A DNA stretch of 64,000 bases, taken from Whalleya microplaca (lineage: Eukaryota > Ascomycota > Sordariomycetes > Xylariales > Xylariaceae). A model generated the notes under the pieces. The model saw only the letters and a program-made list of their open reading frames with translations, was not told the origin of the DNA and searched no databases. Position numbers and translations under genes: made by a program. Below are positions 24,697 through 50,769 of the stretch, piece by piece (position 1 is the first letter of the stretch; each line of letters begins with the position of its first letter). The stretch spans positions 744,001-808,000 of the forward strand of contig MU385716.1 of NCBI GenBank assembly GCA_022497155.1, read 5' to 3'.

Positions 24697-26548
24697 TCAC
24701 CTACTATTTATCGTCGTTCGGTATGAATAAAAGCTTCCTCTGCGCCTGACACTGGCTTTGGTCGACACTTGCAAATCTAGGCTGTAACCCTCCTGACCCT
24801 CAAATGAAGATGGTCTTAGTTGAACCTGAACCGTAAGCGCCAAATTTGATGCGTAGTTGTCCAAGGTGATAGAAGCAGTAGATGACGGTGCTGGCCTGTC
24901 ACTGTCAATAAAGTGCATCCTAAAGTAATCAGCAGCAACATAGTCGGCCGCTTCTTTGGCGTTGTTCATGAAGTCGACCACTGAGTCCCATAGGCCGGAG
25001 TCTTTGGACCAGATAGCGCAGACGGGTTCGTCCATGGTGGAGCACGCGACGAGTACTGGAAATCCCGAGTCAAAGCCTGGCCGAGGGGGGACTTTCAGCA
25101 AAAGGTATGCATTGATTCCTTGGCCTGAGTTGAGAAAGATTTTTCTATTTCGATCCCAGAGATACTCGGGGGCAACGGTAAGGATCTCGCACTCAGCCTT
25201 AGGTATGTTCACGCTGACTGCTCCTCGAAATCGCCCCTGAACCGAGCGTGCTTGAGAAATATGAAGATCTTTGCGGATATGCATTAACGAAGTTTTGCAG
25301 CGGAGTCGCCTTCACATTGAATGTCAGTAATGTTTCTAGCCGGTAATTTCTGGGAGCTATTGCGAATGTGACCGAGAGCTGGCAGAAGGTAAAGAGATTC
25401 GAGGTCATGCCTCTCACCCCTTAAACCAACTGCATGGAGATATAAAAGATTCCTGATACTTACTTGTCATCTGGCCGGGAAGTGTAAAGCTCGTATGGTT
25501 TAGCACGGACATAGCCGCTCACCGTCTTTGCAAGATAGACACCCATCCAGCCTTCCGCGCTATACTTCGGCCAGTCGCCTATCTCGGAGACACCTAGATT
25601 CCAGATGAGATCATGGCTGACGCTGGGAGCGTTGACTAATGCGGTCTCGATTCTGAGCCCTCTATTAGTGACTGTGAATTCCTTGTCAAGGGTGGCATCT
25701 TTGATCCTGAGCTGCAGGTTACGACAGCTAGCGAACTCTCGGGGAGACCTGGCAAATATCCCTCGATACTCTTGAGACGCATTGCTTCCTTTCTCTGAGA
25801 ATTTTGTACTCGGCTTCTCGGCCTTCCACGCAAACAGTGAAAGATCGCAGGATTCCCTGGCGATTTCCTCCTGTAGTCGCATGAAAGCTTTAGGTCCTTC
25901 CCCATAGATCATTGGCATGTTGACATTGAAGATTCCCATTAGACAGTAGGCCATGTCTTCAGTCCGTGTAGTTGTTCTAGCAGAAGCCCAAGACATCCGC
26001 CTCGCTATTGGGACCTGGAACGTATTCTCATTGTCGCCCAATACGGCCTCTTCGATACCCGTGACGCGAGCGAGGAATGGCTTCAGCTCCGATTTCTGAC
26101 CCCGAAACTGCCAAGCTTCATCGTAAAATTCCACCGTCGGCGGTGCAATTAGCTCCTGGAGTGTCCATCCTCGAGTCAACCATCTGCATCTTGGGAAATA
26201 CTTCTCGAATGCCGAGCGCTGTGGAAGATCCGACAGAAACACAACACAAAAGGCCGAATCCATATACCACTTAAACATGGAATTGATGGCCTCCGACAAC
26301 TCTGAACTACTGAGTTTATCGATACAGCAAGTATCAACCCAGGCATACTTCACACCGCGCTTGGCAGCAAGTTGACATGTGCGGAGGATCTTGGCGAACC
26401 CTTTCTTCGATCTGGCCCGAGATAAGTCTCGAAATTCCTGGTACGATACCTCCCCATCCTCCCATGTGTGTGATAGGATTGCATATGAACCTCTCAGTGG
26501 TTCTAGGACGAGTTCCAGTTCAAGAGACTTGGTGTTAATCAACCACAT
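24697..26548 (-). CDS. HET-domain (heterokaryon incompatibility) protein
   Basis: 565 aa, two exons (26548-25464, 25309-24697; phase 2, 154-base intron with a CTGAC branch site 13 bases before the acceptor). The HET domain occupies roughly residues 1-150: MWLINTKSLELELV, YAILSHTWEDGEVSYQEF, KYAWVDTCCIDKLSSSELSE, then RGWTLQELIAPPTVEFYD. HET domains trigger vegetative incompatibility cell death after non-self recognition, acting in the cytoplasm. The following IYGEGPKAFMRLQEEI is the common HET tail motif. No NACHT, WD40 or ankyrin repeats follow, only an unassigned C-terminal region. Without the intron the frame ends at 25460, so the second exon rests on frame rescue and a good branch site. 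Confidence 0.85.
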
Positions 26549-27236: not shown

Positions 27237-28980
27237 TCATCTCAAATCATCGAGCACTCGTTGGTATTCCCGGGTATCAATTGACCAATTACTGCCCCTT
27301 TTCCGAAATACTTCGCCATCTCCAGGAATATGGAATTCGTGCTTCCAAGTGAGACATTCCATCTCAACATCCCCGGCGAGAAACCACCACGATGTCGTGC
27401 TTGGACATCCAAATTCGAGCGTGAAGTACTCCTTTGAATATCCTGGTACTCTTGCTTGTTTGGCGCTTTGGTCGTAGTCAAGCCACCAAAAGAAGCTGTC
27501 AGTCTGGTACGCCTCGAGGTCGAATGTGTCAATGTCTGCCCCCACATATGCCACCTGGAGTTTACCGCCCACTTCGTTGATCTCAATGAAGTAGTTGCCA
27601 ATAGAGTTGTAGTATCGGCCAGTATATGCCGAAAGTGGACGTGTTGGTTCTGAGGAACTCTTCGTGTCGATGAGCTGTTGGTGTACGTCGGCGACAAACT
27701 GGATGTCATCTCTCCCGGCGGTTCGTGCTGTTTCAATGTACGCTGTCTTATTGACCTCGTTTTCGAAGACAGTCTCCACTAGAATATGGCCAATGAGTCT
27801 CATGGCGTCGGTTAAGCCTTCAGAATTGCCGAGGACAACGACTGCAGTCGAAGTTTCCGGGAAGAGAGCAACGAAACCGACGTTTCCAGCGATGTACCCC
27901 TGATGGTGAATCATGAGGCGTGACGGGGAGCCGTTACCAAGAACAGGCGGCACGTAGTCCGCGGCCACGTCCACGATGGCTGGAAGTTGGGCTCGAATCC
28001 AGCCCGAGGCATAGCTAAATTCCCGTAGGGACTTATTTGGCACACTGACCTTACCCTCGAAGAGCTGGGGTACTTGTTTGAGAGGGTTATGTGCGTCGGC
28101 ATTCGTCATTAGATCGACCTGTGAGTTGGCTGTATCGATGAAAGCCTTGTAGAGCACCAATAGATCGTTGATGGAGCTGCGAATAGCCCCCGCTGCTCCG
28201 ATAAGTAGGTCTTTACCATGGCCCCATGGCGGTATCTCGTAAAACGACCCGTCCGCGAGAGCGGCATAGGACTTAGCTGTATTGTTGTCGAAGGGCTCTT
28301 CAGCGTAAAATGTCCTATTCAACTTCAAGGGACCGATGATTCGGTCATGGAGTAGTTCCAAGTATGTAGAGCCAGATACCTTCTCTAGTATCTGACCAAG
28401 TATCTCGTAGGCGATGTTGTTGTATAGAAACTTAGTGCGAATGGGATGTACAACAGGAGCATAGCTCAAGATAGGCACGGCTTGTGACCGATTCATTAGG
28501 ATTTGGTTGTCTGAATTGAGCCAGAGGCCATCATAAGGTGCGAGGCCGGTCCTGTGACTCAAGAGGTCTGCAACTGTGATGTTTGCCTGGGCATCGTCAC
28601 GTTGGTATTCAGGTAACAGCTCTTGCAACTGGGTTGTAAAGTCCATTTTCCCCTCTTCAACCATCATGCCGATCATTGAAGCCGTGACAGCTTTTGTCAT
28701 TGAGCAAATAAGCCAGCTGGTGTCGGCATTCGGCGCCAGCTGATTCTCCACGTCCCGGAAACCATAGTTCGCCGTATGGACGACTTCGCCATGGTGAAGA
28801 ACACCAACAGAGACTCCGGGAGTGCTAGTAATGTTGCAGATTTGTAGGACAATTGGGCCAAGTGCCCCTAGAGCAGACTCGACATGCCTACAAGAAAGAG
28901 TCTTCGTATGTCAAGTTGCGACTTAAATAGAAACAACGCCTACCTACCTACATCATATTAGACAACATTGTCTGAGACAT
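27237..28980 (-). CDS. beta-lactamase/penicillin-binding-protein-like serine hydrolase
   Basis: 559 aa, two exons (28980-28952, 28887-27237; phase 2, the junction rebuilds a Met). Class C beta-lactamase fold. The nucleophile motif S72-M-T-K75 sits in CSMTKAVTAS, Y165-N-N is the YxN motif, and HHQGYIAGN provides the third (H/K-x-G) motif. A C-terminal beta-rich lipocalin-like segment starts near PLSAYTGRYYNSIG. Fungal members include esterases, D-amino-acid-ester hydrolases and acyltransferases such as LovD; true activity on peptidoglycan or beta-lactams is unproven. There is no clear signal peptide. The short first exon (MSQTMLSNM) depends on a GTAGGT donor inside a GTAG repeat. It is next to the Zn2Cys6 gene and divergent from it. 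Confidence 0.88.
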
Positions 28981-43337: not shown

Positions 43338-45611
43338 ATGCCTCCCCGCCAGCAGAGCCAATTGAAGCGCGTCCGGGTATGTTATTAACCTTCTGCCTAT
43401 AATATGCCCACTCTTGTTAATGTCTGTTCAGGATTCACCGACCAGTCCCGACACCGACTCCAAGAAGCCCCGTCGATCCGGCCGCTTGTCGCAAAAGGCG
43501 GAGACTGGCTCCGAACAGCTGAAAACTCCTGTCACCAGGAACAAGCAGAAGCTCCCTTCGCCCGTCACAAATCAAGCAGGCAGCGAAGAGTTATATAAAG
43601 AGTCGACAGCTGAACCGCCTGGCGGACGGCCAAGCCAGGTCACACACAGAACGCCCGAAGAGACCTTCTCTCAGGGACAGGGCCTCTCTTCTCCACCGCA
43701 AGACACGCAGGCTTTCCAGGCTTCCCAGCTCGTCGACCCCAATGCTGCTCTTTCCGACGAAGTCGAGGATGAAGTTAAGGAGGGAGTATGGGGATACATT
43801 TACGATGTCAGTAAGGGCAATCGTCAGCAGTGTTTTGTCTTGAGGAAACGATCAGTATGCCCTGATTCGGATGATATCGCTGGGACATTGACCAAGGAGC
43901 AATCTGGTGCTCCTGCGCTCAGGCAGGAAGAGACGTTCGAGAAGTCAAAAATCAAGGGCATACCATCAGGAGGCTACCTGATTGGACGGCATCCTGAATG
44001 CGGTAGGCCTGTTGTCATATCATCCTAAGTGTATTACTAACATTTTGCAGATATTGTCATAGACGATCCTGTAGTGTCCAACCGACACTGCTTGATATTC
44101 ACTGAGAATAAAGGACAGGACACATTCGCCGTTCTTGAAGACTTGTCAAGCAACGGGACATTTGTGAACGAGGCCATCGTCGGACGAAATAAGCGTCGTG
44201 AGCTGCAAGAGCAGGATGAAATCGCCGTTATGGACAAGGCACGCTACATCTTCCGTTACCCGCGAAGTCGGTCTACTAGTGCTTTCCTACAACAATATAC
44301 CTTGCGTGAGCGGTTAGGCAAGGGTCATTTTGCCGAGGTCTTCCTGTGTGTGGAGAAGTCTACCGGCCAAAGATATGCCGTCAAAGTGTTCACGAAGCGA
44401 CCCGAAGTGGACGATCCGGCGAAAACCGAAGGCCTGCAGCAGGAGATCGCAGTTCTGATGAGCGTCAGTCATCCCAATGTTCTGTGCCTGAAGGACACAT
44501 TCAACGAGAAGAATGCTGTATATATGGTGCTGGAACTTGCGCCCGAAGGCGAATTGTTCAATCATATTGTTATGAAGCAAAAGTTGACTGAAGATGAGAC
44601 ACGGAAACTGTTCATTCAGTTGTTCCAGGGTATGAAGTACTTGGTGCGTAGTTTCATTCACCCGTTTGAGATTGCTTGCTAACACCATTAATAGCATGAC
44701 CGAAATATTGTTCATCGAGATATCAAACCCGAGAATATCTTGCTGGTTGACAAAGAAGCACATGTCAAGCTTGCTGATTTTGGTCTTGCCAAGATTATTG
44801 GGGAGGAGTCTTTCACAACTACTCTCTGTGGCACACCAAGTTATGTTGCTCCAGAAATCTTAGCAGAAGGACGACATAGGAAATACACAAAGGCCGTGGA
44901 CGTTTGGTCGCTGGGTGTGGTGTTATATATCTGCCTCTGTGGATTTCCCCCCTTCTCCGATGAACTCTACAGTCGTGACTTCCCGTACACCCTGCCGCAA
45001 CAGATCAAAAGCGGCCGCTTTGACTACCCTTCGCCCTACTGGGATTCCGTTGGTGACCCTGCCTGTAAGTCCATCTCGCTCTGTCCTTTATCATTTGTAG
45101 AATACTATAACAGGAACTGACGTCAACTACTTTTTTAGTGGATCTCATTGACAAGATGTTGGTGGTCGAACCAGAGAAGCGCTTCACCATTGATCAGTGT
45201 CTGTCACACCCGTGGCTAACCCAGAAACTGCCGGGTGTCAATGACAGCACGGATGGCCTTGTAGCAGGAATCGGAGGTCTCGATGTGAAACGGAGAGGTG
45301 TACACCGTGAACGAACCCTGCTCAGTTCCTTTAACTCGATTCACGTCACCCAAAAAGTCCCATTAAACCCCGACTCGAAGAAAGGCCCGTTGAAGGTCTA
45401 CGCCAAGAATCCGACTGCCGCTCCGCAGAACGCGGCAGCTAAGGAAGCTCGGCCGGCTGACCAGCGAGCTGCGAATGAGTTCATAGAGATGGGCGGTAAA
45501 GGAGACCAGCAGCTCTTCGCCGACGACTCTGCCAGTTTCTACTCCAAGACTGAAGCTGTGGCTGCCAAGGCCGGCAAAGGCAAGGGGAAGGCGAAAGCCA
45601 ATGGAAGGTAA
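43338..45611 (+). CDS. CHK2: CHK2/Cds1/Rad53-type checkpoint kinase
   Basis: Nuclear Ser/Thr kinase of the DNA-damage/replication checkpoint (the Neurospora homologue is PRD-4). 681 aa, five exons: 43338-43376, 43432-44002, 44051-44643, 44695-45064 and 45139-45611. A basic, SQ/TQ-containing N-terminus (SPPQDTQAFQASQ) offers PIKK sites. The single FHA domain (~175-270) has GGYLIGRHPECG, VVSNRHC and SSNGTFVN. The kinase domain starts near residue 286 with the glycine loop LGKGHFAEVF, then AVKVF, HRDIKPEN (Asp410), DFG (Asp429), GTPSYVAPE and DVWSLGVVLYICLCG. A basic Ala/Lys-rich tail ends KGKGKAKANGR, probably a nuclear localisation signal. One FHA domain, as in Cds1/Chk2, not two as in yeast Rad53. 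Confidence 0.95.
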
Positions 45612-46333
45612 TGGATGAATGATGGATTGGCATTTATTACGTTAAAGTGTACGGAGCAGATGAGGTTGGGGATGTTGATAGCTCTGCCGGGCGTTGCGCA
45701 CTTTCTGTTGAGCATGTAGCGGGAGATCTATCGGAGCTGTTAGGCCCCCGTTCATTAGTTCCGGGGCTTGTCATCTAGTTGCTAGGGGGGGCGACGTCTC
45801 ATTTGCGCCGAGTGGGAGGCGTTGGTCTTGCTTGGGGGGTTCAATAATTCAGCTACTTCGGGAGAATGGAGGTATGTGAACTCAAAAGGGGGTTAGTAGT
45901 AGTCTTAGTGTCATTGCATTATATCATATTATATACCTAGTACTCGATCATCGCGTCGTATCTGCTTCAACGCGGAGATTTGCATTTTATATGTTTTTCG
46001 ACGTCTTTGCAGAAGGATTGTATTACTTTGGAATGTTGGTGTTGTAGCTTGTAAGAGGATTTGCGGTTGAAGAGGAAGAGAGGCTGGGAGTGAGAAAGCG
46101 GCAACTGGAACCCGCCGCATTATGAAAATGATAAAGCACCAAGGGTGCTATGATCAATACACCTGGAGATATAATCCGACAAATATCCTATGATAAAGAA
46201 TCGCTTCTCATTTACGTAATAAAATTGTTCATGGGCAAGTAGTATAGCTCTAAAATCGTTATTTCAATGGAATATATATGCGCTATCTAGTATGGAGTGC
46301 TTGTACGAATTGATAGATGAAACCTCTTACTCA
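45612..46333. other. convergent spacer
   Basis: About 720 bases between the CHK2 stop and the murA-like stop. GC-poor in its right half. Nothing recognised; it marks the boundary between conserved fungal sequence and the mur pair. Confidence 0.5.
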
Positions 46334-47869
46334 TTATTCCCTCCTTTCCCCGTAGGTAATATGAATCCGAGCACCGAGCCCCTCGAGTCTTTTCGTTAGA
46401 TCCTCATAGCCCCGAAGAAGCACGTGAGCATCTTTGAGCAGAGATCTTCCCGGCGCTGCCATCATGCCGATCACCAAAGCAGCCGCAGGCCGTATGGCAG
46501 CTGGGCACTTGATATCAGCCGCCTTGAGCCGTGCGGGATCGGAGCCAGTGACAATTACACGATGAGGATCCATAATCTTTATGTTGACGCCAAGACGCTG
46601 AAACTCATTATACATCGCACCACGGCCCTCGAACACCCAATCGTGAATTAGTGTCCTCCCGTGAGCGACGGCGGCGATAGGGATAAATAATGGCAGATTG
46701 TCTATATTTAGGCCAGGGAAGACGTTTGGATGTAGTTTATCCGGGAGTGCATGTAAACCACCGTTGTGTTTATGGACCGTCAAGTCTACGAGATCGAGAT
46801 GCCCGTTCCTCGCCTTATAGGCAGTAGACATCTTGTATGACAATCCCATTTTCTCTAATTTCAAGAGCTCAAGCTCGAGAAACTCGAGAGGCACCCGTCG
46901 GATTGTGATACTCGAGTTTGTGGCCACGGCTGCAGCGAGGAATGACATGGCTTCAATAGGATCCTCCGAAGGGGCGTAGGTGGCATCTTGTTTCCGGATC
47001 TCAGATACACCATGGACGGTCAAGGTACTACAGCCTATCCCGTCGATACGAACACCAAGCTCTGTCAGGTAATGGCACATATCCTGGACCATGTAATTAG
47101 AACTGGCCTTCTTGATGATGGTGGTTCCCGGCGTTAACGCAGCAGCCATCAAGATATTCTCCGTAGTAGTGTCACCCGATTCGTAAAGGACGACCGGCCG
47201 AGCTGGCACTTTTGGATTACTATGAACCATGTAGTACCCTTCAGCGTGGGTATCCACCCTCACACCGAACTCCTCGAGAGCGTATAGATGCGGTAGGATA
47301 GTGCGCTGACCGAGCTCGCAGCCGCCAGCATGCGGGATTTGAAATTCTCTCGCGTGGTGCATTATGGTACCGATAAGCATGATCACACTGCGTGTCTGGG
47401 AAGCCGCACGTATGTCTATATTAGACAAATCCAGTTGCGCCGGGGGTGCGATCTCCAAATCGTTCCCTTCGAGCCAGCGGATCTCGACGCCCATGCTCTG
47501 CATAACTTCGCAGAGTCGATGGACCTCCTCGATACGGGGGGTTTTGACGAGTCGTGTCCTTCCCTTGTTCAGGAGACTTGCGCATAATAAGCCTACGGCA
47601 GCATTTTTACTGCTGTTGACGATAATTTCGCCTCGGAGTTCGTGACCACCTTCTATAAACAGGTCGAGGGAACCTTCGGTGGTCTTCATAGCACGTCCCA
47701 TTTCCTTTAAGGATATGTAAGACCACGCATCCATACGGCGTTGGTTTACGGGGAACAGAATACGTAAGTAATAGCAAGGAGGTTTCCTTTGAAAGCATCG
47801 CCTAGTAGTGTCTTTTGTTTTGTCAACTCCATTGTTACCGAGATGAGCTAGCTGGTTGATACTCTCCAT
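46334..47869 (-). CDS. murA: MurA-like UDP-N-acetylglucosamine enolpyruvyl transferase
   Basis: Bacterial-type enzyme that moves enolpyruvate from PEP to the 3'-OH of UDP-GlcNAc, the first committed step of peptidoglycan synthesis. 511 aa, no intron. The EPSP-synthase-like double domain begins at ~residue 67 (SLDLFIEGGHELRGEI). E. coli catalytic positions map well: K88-N89 in NSSKNAA (K22/N23), R160 (R91), C184 in GGCELGQR (the fosfomycin Cys115), R189 (R120), D390 in GLNIDNLP (D305), R416 in FEGRG (R331), R460 (R371) and R486 in LLRGYED (R397). The bacterial Asp369 is Ala458 here (PAAIRPAA). The N-terminal ~66 residues are extra, so starts at Met46, Met57 or Met61 (47734, 47701, 47689) are possible. 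No targeting peptide is evident. It lies 136 bases downstream of the murB-like gene on the same strand. Confidence 0.93.
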   Translation of the reverse strand: MESINQLAHLGNNGVDKTKDTTRRCFQRKPPCYYLRILFPVNQRRMDAWSYISLKEMGRAMKTTEGSLDLFIEGGHELRGEIIVNSSKNAAVGLLCASLLNKGRTRLVKTPRIEEVHRLCEVMQSMGVEIRWLEGNDLEIAPPAQLDLSNIDIRAASQTRSVIMLIGTIMHHAREFQIPHAGGCELGQRTILPHLYALEEFGVRVDTHAEGYYMVHSNPKVPARPVVLYESGDTTTENILMAAALTPGTTIIKKASSNYMVQDMCHYLTELGVRIDGIGCSTLTVHGVSEIRKQDATYAPSEDPIEAMSFLAAAVATNSSITIRRVPLEFLELELLKLEKMGLSYKMSTAYKARNGHLDLVDLTVHKHNGGLHALPDKLHPNVFPGLNIDNLPLFIPIAAVAHGRTLIHDWVFEGRGAMYNEFQRLGVNIKIMDPHRVIVTGSDPARLKAADIKCPAAIRPAAALVIGMMAAPGRSLLKDAHVLLRGYEDLTKRLEGLGARIHITYGERRE

Positions 47870-48005
47870 ACCTCAACAATCATAGACAGCTCTATCTCTA
47901 ACCGATCAAATAGAACTAGTAGCTCGGTTGTCCCTATAGTCGTATCAATAATTCACTCAAATGAGACATATTGCAAGACGCTATCCTGGCAACCTCACAT
48001 CACGT
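47870..48005 (-). promoter_or_regulatory. murB-murA intergenic spacer
   Basis: Only 136 bases separate the murB-like stop from the murA-like first ATG. That is short for two independent fungal genes, and it must hold a terminator plus promoter unless the genes are co-transcribed. No stronger signal was identified. Confidence 0.45.
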
Positions 48006-49055
48006 CTATATCTCAGTGATGGGTAGCAGAACCGGCTCCCGAAATAAACGAACCGCGAACTTCACATATACAGCATTGATAATCTTCTCTTGAAATCTTA
48101 GCAGGTCAGCTGTCGACGAAGCGTGCTCGTTTATGCATACCAGCGGCTGAGTAATCCAGGTTGCCATCCCCGTCTCACTGTCATGATAATTTTTGAAACC
48201 GGCCTGCTCGATTAGCCATGCCGCTGATAGCTTACAGGAGCCTTCATCAACGGGCCAGATAGGGAGGTTATCATGGACCGTCTTTAGTGCCTGGGCGTTC
48301 CAGTGAGTAGTTATCGGGTTCGCGAAGAACGATCCGCAGTTGCGCACTACGCTTGGATCAGGCAGTTTGGACTTGCGGATTGCGATGACGGCATCGCGTA
48401 ATACCTGAGGTGTGTAAATCGTAATTTGGCGATCATCGAGGTATGACTGTAGAGCCGCGTACAGCTGCGGCTGAGGCGTGGTCTTGGTGAGACGGAGAGT
48501 GACTGCTGTGATGTAAAAGCGCCCGCGGTCAACAGTGTTGAATCGAGACGTCCGATATCCAAAATTGCACTCCGAAAAGGAGATTTCAACAAATTCAGCT
48601 GTCCTCGCGTCGAACGCTTCAACAGATACAAGCACTCGGCTGATTTCCTGCCCATAAGCACCGACATTTTGTACTGGCGTGGCGCCGACGCTACCAGGAA
48701 TCAGGCTGAGACATTCAATACCGGTATAACCTGCTGTAACAGTGTGTCTGACAATGTTATCCCACACCTCTCCGCTTCCCGCTATAACGTGGACGAGGCT
48801 ACCATCGCTACCTCGTTCAAGCACATCGAAACCCCTAATCTTGTTGACAATGACAAGTCCGGGAAATCCTTTGTCACGCCAGACGATGTTACTGCCGCCT
48901 CCGACCATGATGACAGGTAGGTTTCCATGTCCGTGGGCCCAGTCCAAGGCTCCAAGGAGTTCGTTCCGGCTTGCCACCGTAGTGGCATATGCCGCCTGGC
49001 CACCGAGACCCATAGTCGATAGTTGTGCCAATGAGACGTTCGTAGCGATCTCCAT
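48006..49055 (-). CDS. murB: MurB-like UDP-N-acetylenolpyruvoylglucosamine reductase
   Basis: FAD- and NADPH-dependent reductase that turns the MurA product into UDP-N-acetylmuramate. 349 aa, no intron; the family's E. coli-type enzyme is about 340 aa, so it is full length. The FAD-binding domain has VGGGSNIVW (residues 51-59) and LIPGSVGATPVQNVGAYG (118-135). Catalytic residues match E. coli type I: Y167-R168 in FGYRTSRF (R159), the proton donor S242 in NCGSFFANP (S229) and E340 in LFREPVLL (E325). The lid-domain phrase KLPDPSVVRNCGSFF is intact. There is no targeting sequence and it is probably cytosolic. It is upstream of murA on the same strand and divergent from a lipase 571 bases away. 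Its closest visible likeness is bacterial; a fungal precursor family is not known to me. Confidence 0.95.
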   Translation of the reverse strand: MEIATNVSLAQLSTMGLGGQAAYATTVASRNELLGALDWAHGHGNLPVIMVGGGSNIVWRDKGFPGLVIVNKIRGFDVLERGSDGSLVHVIAGSGEVWDNIVRHTVTAGYTGIECLSLIPGSVGATPVQNVGAYGQEISRVLVSVEAFDARTAEFVEISFSECNFGYRTSRFNTVDRGRFYITAVTLRLTKTTPQPQLYAALQSYLDDRQITIYTPQVLRDAVIAIRKSKLPDPSVVRNCGSFFANPITTHWNAQALKTVHDNLPIWPVDEGSCKLSAAWLIEQAGFKNYHDSETGMATWITQPLVCINEHASSTADLLRFQEKIINAVYVKFAVRLFREPVLLPITEI

Positions 49056-49626
49056 ACTTGCCTCCCTTCAAGCGGTAGTCTCAGCCGTTCAATAGCTTAT
49101 ATATCGTACGAGAGCGGATCCTCTCGCATGGTCAAGTTCAAGAAATAGACCGTCTGGTTTATTTCAGGGTTTTCTAAGCCCAGGCACAGGGCCACCTCCA
49201 TGAACTAAGGCATTGCCCTGCCCCTAGCGTTATGCTGTCTCATACAGCCTCATATGACGGTGCGACGTGAAGGTCTCATACACGTACTCGTAGGTACGTA
49301 GAATGGTCCGGGACTTGTGGTATCACAAGAAGCTATATCATTCTAGTGGCCACTAGTAGGGGTCGTTCGGGATTTGGGCATCCTTAGTGTCACATACATA
49401 GCAAAAGGGGATCCCCACACTTGCAGTGTGTCCGTTGATGGTTACCTTATGCTAATGCTATTAGGCGATATGTCTAAATGCGGCACGAAGCACGTTGACC
49501 CACTGACTGTAAGCAGGATGCATGAGGCTAACACTATCTACACTTATAAGAATCTGTATGCGCCTGTCCAATTTGTGAGACCATTTCTAAGGCAAAGCTG
49601 TTCATATTTCAAGGCATACCAAGGGG
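49056..49626. promoter_or_regulatory. divergent promoter region, murB-murA and CALB-like lipase
   Basis: 571 bases between the murB-like ATG (minus) and the lipase ATG (plus). A TATATAA-type box on the minus strand lies at 49104-49098, about 45 bases before the murB ATG. On the plus strand CTTATAAG at 49543-49550 lies ~80 bases before the lipase ATG. Shared control of the three genes is inferred. A 113-codon plus ORF starting near 49374 has no protein-like character. Confidence 0.45.
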
Positions 49627-50769
49627 ATGGCTCGTATCCTTTACGTGTCTTTATCTGTGGCGCTTCTAGCTACGTTGTGGTCTTTTACCGGTACTCGCAA
49701 GGATGGTACGGATGAGAGAACGATGCCAGTGCCCAGTGGGCCGGATCCCACGCCACTAGTGGATATATCTCTCCTAGATCAAGCAGCTTGGTGCCCAGTG
49801 CATGTCGAGGGAGCAAAAGAAGTCGTCTTGCTTGTACATGGCACGGGTGTAACGTGAGTGTCCTCCCTGGCCTTGAAGCACCTTGCCCGCTGACTATAGA
49901 TCCGGCGTAAGTTTAGTCCCCAGATCAACTGGGATTATACCCTCGTTCCGCCCCTTGTGAAGCAAGGTTTCCAACCATGCTATGTTGCGGTACCAAACAG
50001 GCTGCTGTTAGATATACAGAGCAGTGCGGAATACATTAGCTATGCTATCAAGAAGTTCGCTAATGAGTATCCATCCCCTAATGGAATCTCGATTATCTCC
50101 TGGTCTGCTGGCTCCCTGGTGACGCAGTGGACACTGACCTTCTACCCCGAATCCCGATCCAAAGTTCGGCGGCATATAGCGCTGGGGCCGTCTTACCGCG
50201 GGTCTTGGACGATGGTACCGCTGTTCTATCTGAACCGCTACTCCGAGGCCGTGGTTCAACAGTTGCCTTGGTCTAACTTACTGGCGACACTGAGGAAGTT
50301 TGGCGGCTTGAGAGCACATGTACCAACCACCAATATCGGATCCAGTACGGATCAAGTTGTGCAGCCCAGCTTCTTTGGGGAGGGGAAAGGGGGTCACAAT
50401 GATTCGTGGAGGCTCAGCGGTCCAATGGCGAGAAATGTCGATGTGTTCAAAGCCTGCCTGTCTGCAGCATGGGAGAAGAGACTGCCACGCCTCTTCACAC
50501 ACGAGTCTCTCTTGTGGGAACCAGTCAGCCATAAGGTTATTTTTGATGCCTTGAATAACGACGAGACCTGTATCGGAACTGCAGATGCAATCGACCAGAG
50601 CGATTTCGATAGCAGGCTCGCACCGGGCCTTGAACCAGCTTGGCGGGAAAAGCATCAAAGCATTCTACCGGAACTTTTCAAATATGCGCCAACTCAGCCA
50701 CGCAGCGGCTGGCCCGAAGTGTCATTGCGGAATTATACGAGTACTGAGGATCCGCGATTGGAGGGATGA
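49627..50769 (+). CDS. secreted Candida antarctica lipase B-like lipase
   Basis: 359 aa, two exons (49627-49853, 49917-50769; phase 2). The acceptor at 49916 was chosen because it alone gives GTGVTPQINWDY, equivalent to the CALB oxyanion region, and it follows a GCTGAC branch site. A signal peptide or anchor covers residues 1-22 (ILYVSLSVALLATLWSF). The nucleophile is Ser139 in SWSAG, within ISIISWSAGSLVTQWTLTFYP. The acid is Asp221 in STDQVVQP and the His is His271 in FTHESLL. The motif FGGLRAHVPTTNIGSSTD matches CALB closely. Family enzymes hydrolyse or transfer acyl groups on diverse alcohols and amines. Being divergent from murB-murA, it might acylate or deacylate the same product, which is speculation. 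Confidence 0.9.

Follow-up and report, generated by a model that had tools for sequence, protein, structure and literature searches.

A murB-murA gene pair of probable Saccharimonadales origin in the fungus Whalleya microplaca

Gene content and domain assignment

A 64,000-nucleotide stretch of the Whalleya microplaca assembly GCA_022497155.1 (contig MU385716.1, positions 744,001 to 808,000; hereafter the window, with coordinates counted from its first letter) carries adjacent genes for relatives of MurB and MurA, the enzymes that open bacterial cell-wall synthesis; fungal walls contain no peptidoglycan. The murB gene, coding for a UDP-N-acetylenolpyruvoylglucosamine reductase of 349 amino acids, lies at 48006 to 49055 on the minus strand. 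A 136-bp spacer (47870 to 48005) separates it from the murA open reading frame (ORF), which codes for a UDP-N-acetylglucosamine (UDP-GlcNAc) enolpyruvyl transferase and occupies 46334 to 47869 on the same strand. Both frames are intact and intron-free, contain no internal stops, and are present in single copy. From its first ATG the murA ORF encodes 511 residues, and homology begins only near residue 57, so that the conserved part starts near 47701. The murA start is uncertain (candidate ATGs at 47869, 47734, 47701, and 47689); the 455-residue form running from 47701 to the stop is the one predicted in the searched protein set (P0121). The MurB start is that of most aligned bacterial relatives. 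An initial annotation made from the DNA had described a full-length, same-strand, intron-free pair, and the frames and the domain assignments agree with it.

MurB matches the Pfam families FAD_binding_4 (1.9e-15) and MurB_C (2.8e-15), the latter being the only MurB_C match in the fungal genome. It exceeds three NCBIfam equivalog cut-offs for UDP-N-acetylmuramate dehydrogenase (PRK00046, 313.6 vs 277; PRK13903, 256.4 vs 231; TIGR00179, 154.6 vs 144.5). MurA matches EPSP_synthase (PF00275, 6.4e-43); its PRK09369 score of 304 exceeds the 297 set for that subfamily, and its TIGR01072 score of 282 is under the murA equivalog cut-off of 392.7. Both bacterial MurAs tested also fall under the TIGR01072 cut-off (P0126, 301.4; P0125, 299.8), so this cut-off cannot be used to tell the branch apart from MurA. 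Assignment of the window protein as an AROM or EPSP synthase was ruled out (aroA, 75 bits; murA, 282 bits). The genome contains one other EPSP-synthase match, a 1,576-residue frame on contig C44 that was taken for the usual AROM gene.

The catalytic residues named in the initial annotation are present and occupy invariant columns in alignments with selected near relatives. In MurB (25 rows) these are R168, S242, and E340, which we take to be the equivalents of R159, S229, and E325 in Escherichia coli. In MurA (18 rows) they are K32, C128, R133, D334, and R430 in the 455-residue numbering, corresponding to K88, C184, R189, D390, and R486 of the 511-residue ORF; N33 is likewise invariant. C128 (in GGCxxGxR), K32, N33, D334, and R430 are presumably E. 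coli C115, K22, N23, D305, and R397. The MurB structure model (predicted local distance difference test [pLDDT] 86.4) has a template modeling (TM) score of 0.91 to Pseudomonas aeruginosa MurB 4jay, and the protein is predicted to adopt the MurB fold; its alignment to 1mbb spans R168 and S242 and not E340. The MurA model is weak (pLDDT 68.9, predicted TM score 0.51), and its best structural matches are MurAs at a TM score of about 0.4.

Homologs and phylogenetic placement

The MurB search returned 7,982 of 7,997 scored candidates at an E value of 0.001. Among the 119 foreign matches listed from these 7,982, identities were 57–63% and every named organism belonged to Saccharibacteria or Saccharimonadales. 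The best foreign match to MurA was fungal, P0122 from Xylariaceae sp. FL0662B (75% identity), and the next 118 listed had identities of 61–67%. Most of these 118 are unnamed, and the remainder are named Saccharimonadales, Patescibacteria, soil metagenome, Verrucomicrobiae, Sulfotelmatobacter, or Methylomirabilota. The last three names belong to Saccharibacteria-like MurAs (P0132, P0161, and P0167) and are probably the product of mis-binned metagenome contigs. Across genomes, MurB was matched in 226 of the 286 from the phylum of the Saccharibacteria genome G001, with identity ranging from 60% down to about 30%, and MurA in 236 of the 246 from its order.

Trees were constructed from 69 rows for MurA (13 of the 118 listed non-fungal matches used) and 85 rows for MurB (27 of the 119 listed foreign matches used). 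The MurA tree omits the window's own loci and loci L036–L052 and L055, and 13 of the 18 genomes omitted with the latter re-enter as longer loci. The MurB tree omits loci below 38% identity (L030–L032, L066, L067, L086, and L091), L004, and the duplicates L006–L010. The MurAs of the two fungi group together (support 100/100) within a 44-row Saccharimonadales set (100/99), placed weakly beside P0123, P0125, P0126, and P0129 (91/49). For MurB, the fungal protein belongs to a set of 30 rows (99/94), where its neighbors are nine rows that include P0010 and P0013 (90/80). The neighbors in the two trees occur on contigs of matching length, 6,465 bases for P0125 (MurA) and P0010 (MurB) and 1,150,462 bases for P0126 and P0013, so both trees point to one donor lineage. 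Searches and trees thus place both proteins in Saccharimonadales, which upholds the bacterial origin originally proposed and supports a nested position for both within Candidatus Saccharibacteria.

Gene order in Saccharibacteria and in the fungus

Gene order was compared in 40 stretches around bacterial murA, a selection from the 236 genomes with a match that took in the top-ranking MurAs and a varied sample of the rest. In 38 of them murB is present, always on the murA strand and 1.6–6.0 kb upstream; glyA lies between the two on the opposite strand in all 38. One of the two stretches without murB (L094) stops within glyA at a contig end. Directly ahead of MurA, a match to an N-terminal helix-turn-helix (HTH) domain was found in 40 of 40 stretches (Pfam check of one locus). 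In these Saccharimonadales loci (L066–L105) the fusion joins a regulator domain to the first committed cell-wall enzyme.

The fungal pair keeps the usual bacterial order and orientation, with the 136-bp spacer at the position held by glyA in the 38 bacterial stretches, and neither glyA nor the HTH domain had a match in the fungal stretch. An in-frame stretch upstream of murA was considered as an HTH remnant and rejected, as it scored no better than shuffled sequence (54 of 300 shuffles reached its score). No bacterial-type glyA was seen elsewhere in the fungal genome; bacterial GlyA matched contigs C21 and C18, in each case as two pieces of 45–51% identity, consistent with native serine hydroxymethyltransferase genes that contain introns. 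The sequence supports the transfer of a block that included murB and murA from a bacterium of the Saccharimonadales to a fungal ancestor shared with Xylariaceae sp. FL0662B. One transfer is the simplest account, because it would take chance for two independent transfers to produce this arrangement.

Chromosomal context and a second fungus

The window lies in a contig of 1,271,413 bases (C7) in an assembly of 48.1 Mb and 114 contigs, and the pair is located 790 kb into it. On one side is a gene of several exons (43414 to 45611, plus strand) in which 44740–45117 matches a protein kinase domain; on the other is an ORF at 49957 to 50769 (plus strand) with no Pfam family at an E value of 0.001. About 10 kb from the pair, a MUN/C2 gene (59791 to 63998, plus strand) has relatives across Xylariales. 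Of the 748 matches to its product, the 120 listed show the greatest similarity to Xylariales, in keeping with a xylarialean ascomycete: over its full length the product is 90% identical to P0242, its closest foreign relative, and 84–85% identical to proteins from Parahypoxylon, Hypomontagnella, and Hypoxylon. P0242 and the FL0662B MurA both come from contigs of 762,102 bases, which would be one shared contig, and the two fungal murA genes probably occupy the same chromosomal region. The FL0662B protein is named a putative UDP-N-acetylglucosamine 1-carboxyvinyltransferase, and no publication was found in a literature search for this strain. In-frame insertions common to both fungal MurAs are missing from the 16 other aligned rows.

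Codon use was expressed as a log ratio per codon between native genes and bacterial homologs. Values were +0.057 for murA and +0.025 for murB. Four window genes, three of them used in training, gave +0.041 to +0.056, and six bacterial genes gave −0.043 to −0.089. Codon use is native-like for murA and less so for murB, and the support this lends is modest because some bacterial relatives have a similar third-position GC content. Repeats that might mark integration were limited, within 45600–50000, to one 14-nt inverted pair (93%), which was taken as chance.

Bacterial, intron-free genes are what assembly contamination or a chimeric contig would produce, and the initial annotation had judged this improbable from the flanking genes. 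The position deep in a 1.27-Mb contig between fungal genes, the modest shift toward native codons, and a second fungus with a 75%-identical MurA, which carries the same derived insertions and comes from a contig equal in length to that of a window neighbor's relative, all count against it, and contamination is very unlikely.

Sequence constraint

Fungal substitutions were compared with variability across 41 MurA and 84 MurB bacterial rows, made up of loci with at least 55% (MurA) or 48% (MurB) identity together with 13 MurA matches and the MurB matches P0002–P0061. Changes concentrate at sites that vary among bacteria (MurA, P = 4e-21; MurB, P = 3e-27). In MurB, 1 of 53 bacterially invariant columns has changed vs 60 of the 82 most variable; in the window MurA the counts are 12 of 129 and 33 of 47. 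The FL0662B MurA has changed at 15 of the 129 invariant columns, and differences between the window and FL0662B MurAs likewise fall at variable sites (P = 2e-12). Simulated neutral drift to 75% identity introduced four stops per gene on average, and few runs remained free of stops (8 of 400 for murA, 6 of 400 for murB). Constraint on both reading frames during their evolution is thus supported by the pattern of substitution.

These results bear on whether the pair could be a relic in decay, on its way out of the genome after transfer and a period of retention. The HTH domain is gone, and the 120 listed matches to each protein include a MurA from one further fungus and, for MurB (120 listed of 7,982), no protein of another fungus, so that the FL0662B MurB has perhaps disappeared. 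Both window ORFs are intact, and substitutions are constrained even between the two fungal MurAs, and we regard a relic as improbable. The earlier view of a selected pathway rather than debris therefore stands as far as the intact frames and constrained substitutions are concerned, and is weakened by the lack of an FL0662B MurB among the listed matches.

Later pathway steps and resident bacteria

The initial annotation had proposed a search for the remaining mur genes. In searches of the genome there was no match to Mur_ligase_M (PF08245, six frames; control positive in 12 of 14 genomes), transpeptidase (PF00905; 10 of 14), FtsW/RodA (PF01098; 10 of 14), or AnmK (PF03702; 5 of 14). These searches ignore introns, and intron-free bacterial genes like the pair should be visible to them. 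Fungal folylpolyglutamate synthase is a distant member of PF08245, so the zero for that family indicates that the searches can overlook genes that are split or divergent. The Ddl family (PF07478) gave nine matches (best 4.5e-10) that are probably other ATP-grasp enzymes. A search for bacterial 16S rRNA in the assembly, which may have been filtered, gave no match with 5 of 591 candidates scored and the control positive in 9 of 14.

Bacteria inside the hyphae of Xylariales are known, and the pair might serve or control bacteria in or on the hyphae. A precedent for such an arrangement exists in the mealybug Planococcus citri, whose nuclear genome encodes bacterial murA–murF and ddlB, discussed as mediators of crosstalk among its endosymbionts (PMC5664097). 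The absence of a Mur ligase, transpeptidase, or FtsW/RodA match would leave the fungus with the first two steps only, and their product, a sugar nucleotide, could reach a bacterium only by passing through membranes. The 16S result says little on this point. We consider a role in hyphal bacteria quite unlikely.

Proposed function

In the reading we prefer, the transferred pair reached the fungus without glyA and the MurA HTH domain, and both proteins would act in the cytosol, as by-eye inspection found no targeting sequence or organelle signal in either. MurA would join phosphoenolpyruvate to UDP-GlcNAc, a chitin precursor, and MurB would reduce the product with NADPH to UDP-N-acetylmuramic acid (UDP-MurNAc). 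The bacterial route would end at this point, since Mur ligases, transpeptidases, and FtsW/RodA all went unmatched in the genome. In the least certain step, UDP-MurNAc would donate its acidic sugar, through a fungal glycosyltransferase, to a glycan or secondary metabolite and not to peptidoglycan. Taken as a whole, with transfer, constrained frames, cytosolic UDP-MurNAc, and use as a sugar donor, we think this account is probably correct. The use of UDP-MurNAc as an unusual sugar donor is tentatively favored among the uses of the pair; a drain of UDP-GlcNAc is another possible one. The wider proposal, that Saccharibacteria donate working genes to fungi and that a two-step saccharibacterial route from a chitin precursor supplies UDP-MurNAc for a muramic-acid glycan or metabolite, may hold and is put forward with reserve.

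Several observations weigh against this reading. As regards origin, the placement next to one donor group is weak for MurA and moderate for MurB, and murB has the less native codon use. The genome G001 has a rearranged locus in which glyA adjoins murA (L085) and murB is on another contig with neither gene nearby (L003). In a distant genome from the phylum search (G182), murB and murA are direct neighbors without glyA (39% and 29% identity), so glyA may have been missing from this position in the actual donor from the outset. Four loci (L066, L067, L086, and L091) have, in the expected position, a MurB with just 29–32% identity to the fungal one, which suggests that in this order MurB has been replaced in situ or has evolved rapidly; L066 carries the best MurA among the genomes searched. 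As regards maintenance, drift to 90% identity left more simulated frames free of stops (54 of 400 for murA, 72 of 400 for murB), which weakens the drift argument, and the two genes are perhaps not retained jointly in all cases, given the FL0662B result. As regards function, the FL0662B MurA falls under the PRK09369 cut-off (287.7 vs 297), which together with the changed invariant MurA columns makes a functional shift possible. The fungal MurA stem is also long (0.74 changes per column), and we know of no fungal enzyme that uses UDP-MurNAc.

The same transfer could have been followed by a change of job, with MurA moving enolpyruvate to another acceptor and MurB reducing the product in a fungal metabolite pathway. 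NikO moves enolpyruvate to another acceptor in nikkomycin synthesis, and it is a detectable relative of the window MurA (7.6e-19); the long shared stem and the altered invariant columns fit such a change as well. On the other hand, the residues that act in catalysis or substrate binding in E. coli MurA and MurB, including Arg133, are invariant with near bacterial relatives, and MurB keeps 52 of 53 invariant columns. A core enzyme of a metabolite cluster was found in 0 of the 20 window ORFs scanned with Pfam, a scan limited by introns and unscanned exons. A changed job therefore seems unlikely to us.

Relation to known systems

Muramic acid serves as a bacterial marker. This rule would be broken by a fungus that makes UDP-MurNAc, as muramic acid would then come from a eukaryote without peptidoglycan, and the fungus would own an acidic amino sugar that plant and animal immune receptors may read as bacterial. 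The active-site cysteine of MurA predicts that the enzyme would be blocked by fosfomycin. The pair would also be an unusually clear case of transfer from the Candidate Phyla Radiation to a eukaryote, which would suggest close contact between Saccharibacteria and hyphae.

Host-encoded mur genes are also carried by plants and mosses with plastid peptidoglycan, and systematic transfer screens of xylarialean genomes exist that could list this MurA. The closest known system is the murB-glyA-murA locus of Saccharibacteria, to which the fungal pair is similar in sequence (57–67% identity among listed matches), order, orientation, and catalytic residues. The fungal copy differs in being chromosomal in a fungus, in having neither glyA nor the HTH domain, and in the absence of matches to later steps in the genome. 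FL0662B has a MurA close to that of the window, but no MurB among the 120 listed MurB matches. The mealybug parallel drawn in the initial annotation holds in part: bacterial mur genes reside in a eukaryotic nuclear genome there too, but that set spans murA–F and ddlB (PMC5664097), whereas the fungus, a host from a different kingdom, has two steps from one donor group, no Mur ligase match, and no known resident bacterium. Proteins of Calonectria and Fusarium carry the label "UDP-N-acetylmuramate dehydrogenase" on the basis of a GO term or an EC number (PMC5946483, PMC4511438). These labels probably stem from a general FAD-binding domain and are not to be read as MurB; the window MurB has the name in common with them and additionally has MurB_C and passes the equivalog cut-offs. 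In the part of the literature listings covered, there was no report of such mur genes in fungi or of transfer from Saccharibacteria to a fungus. The donor group, the usual bacterial order, the second fungus with MurA, and the lack of matches to the later pathway are additions to the initial annotation.

Elsewhere in the window, at 27240–28751 on the minus strand, a beta-lactamase-family protein (PF00144 and DUF3471) is encoded next to a HET-domain ORF at 25463–26548.

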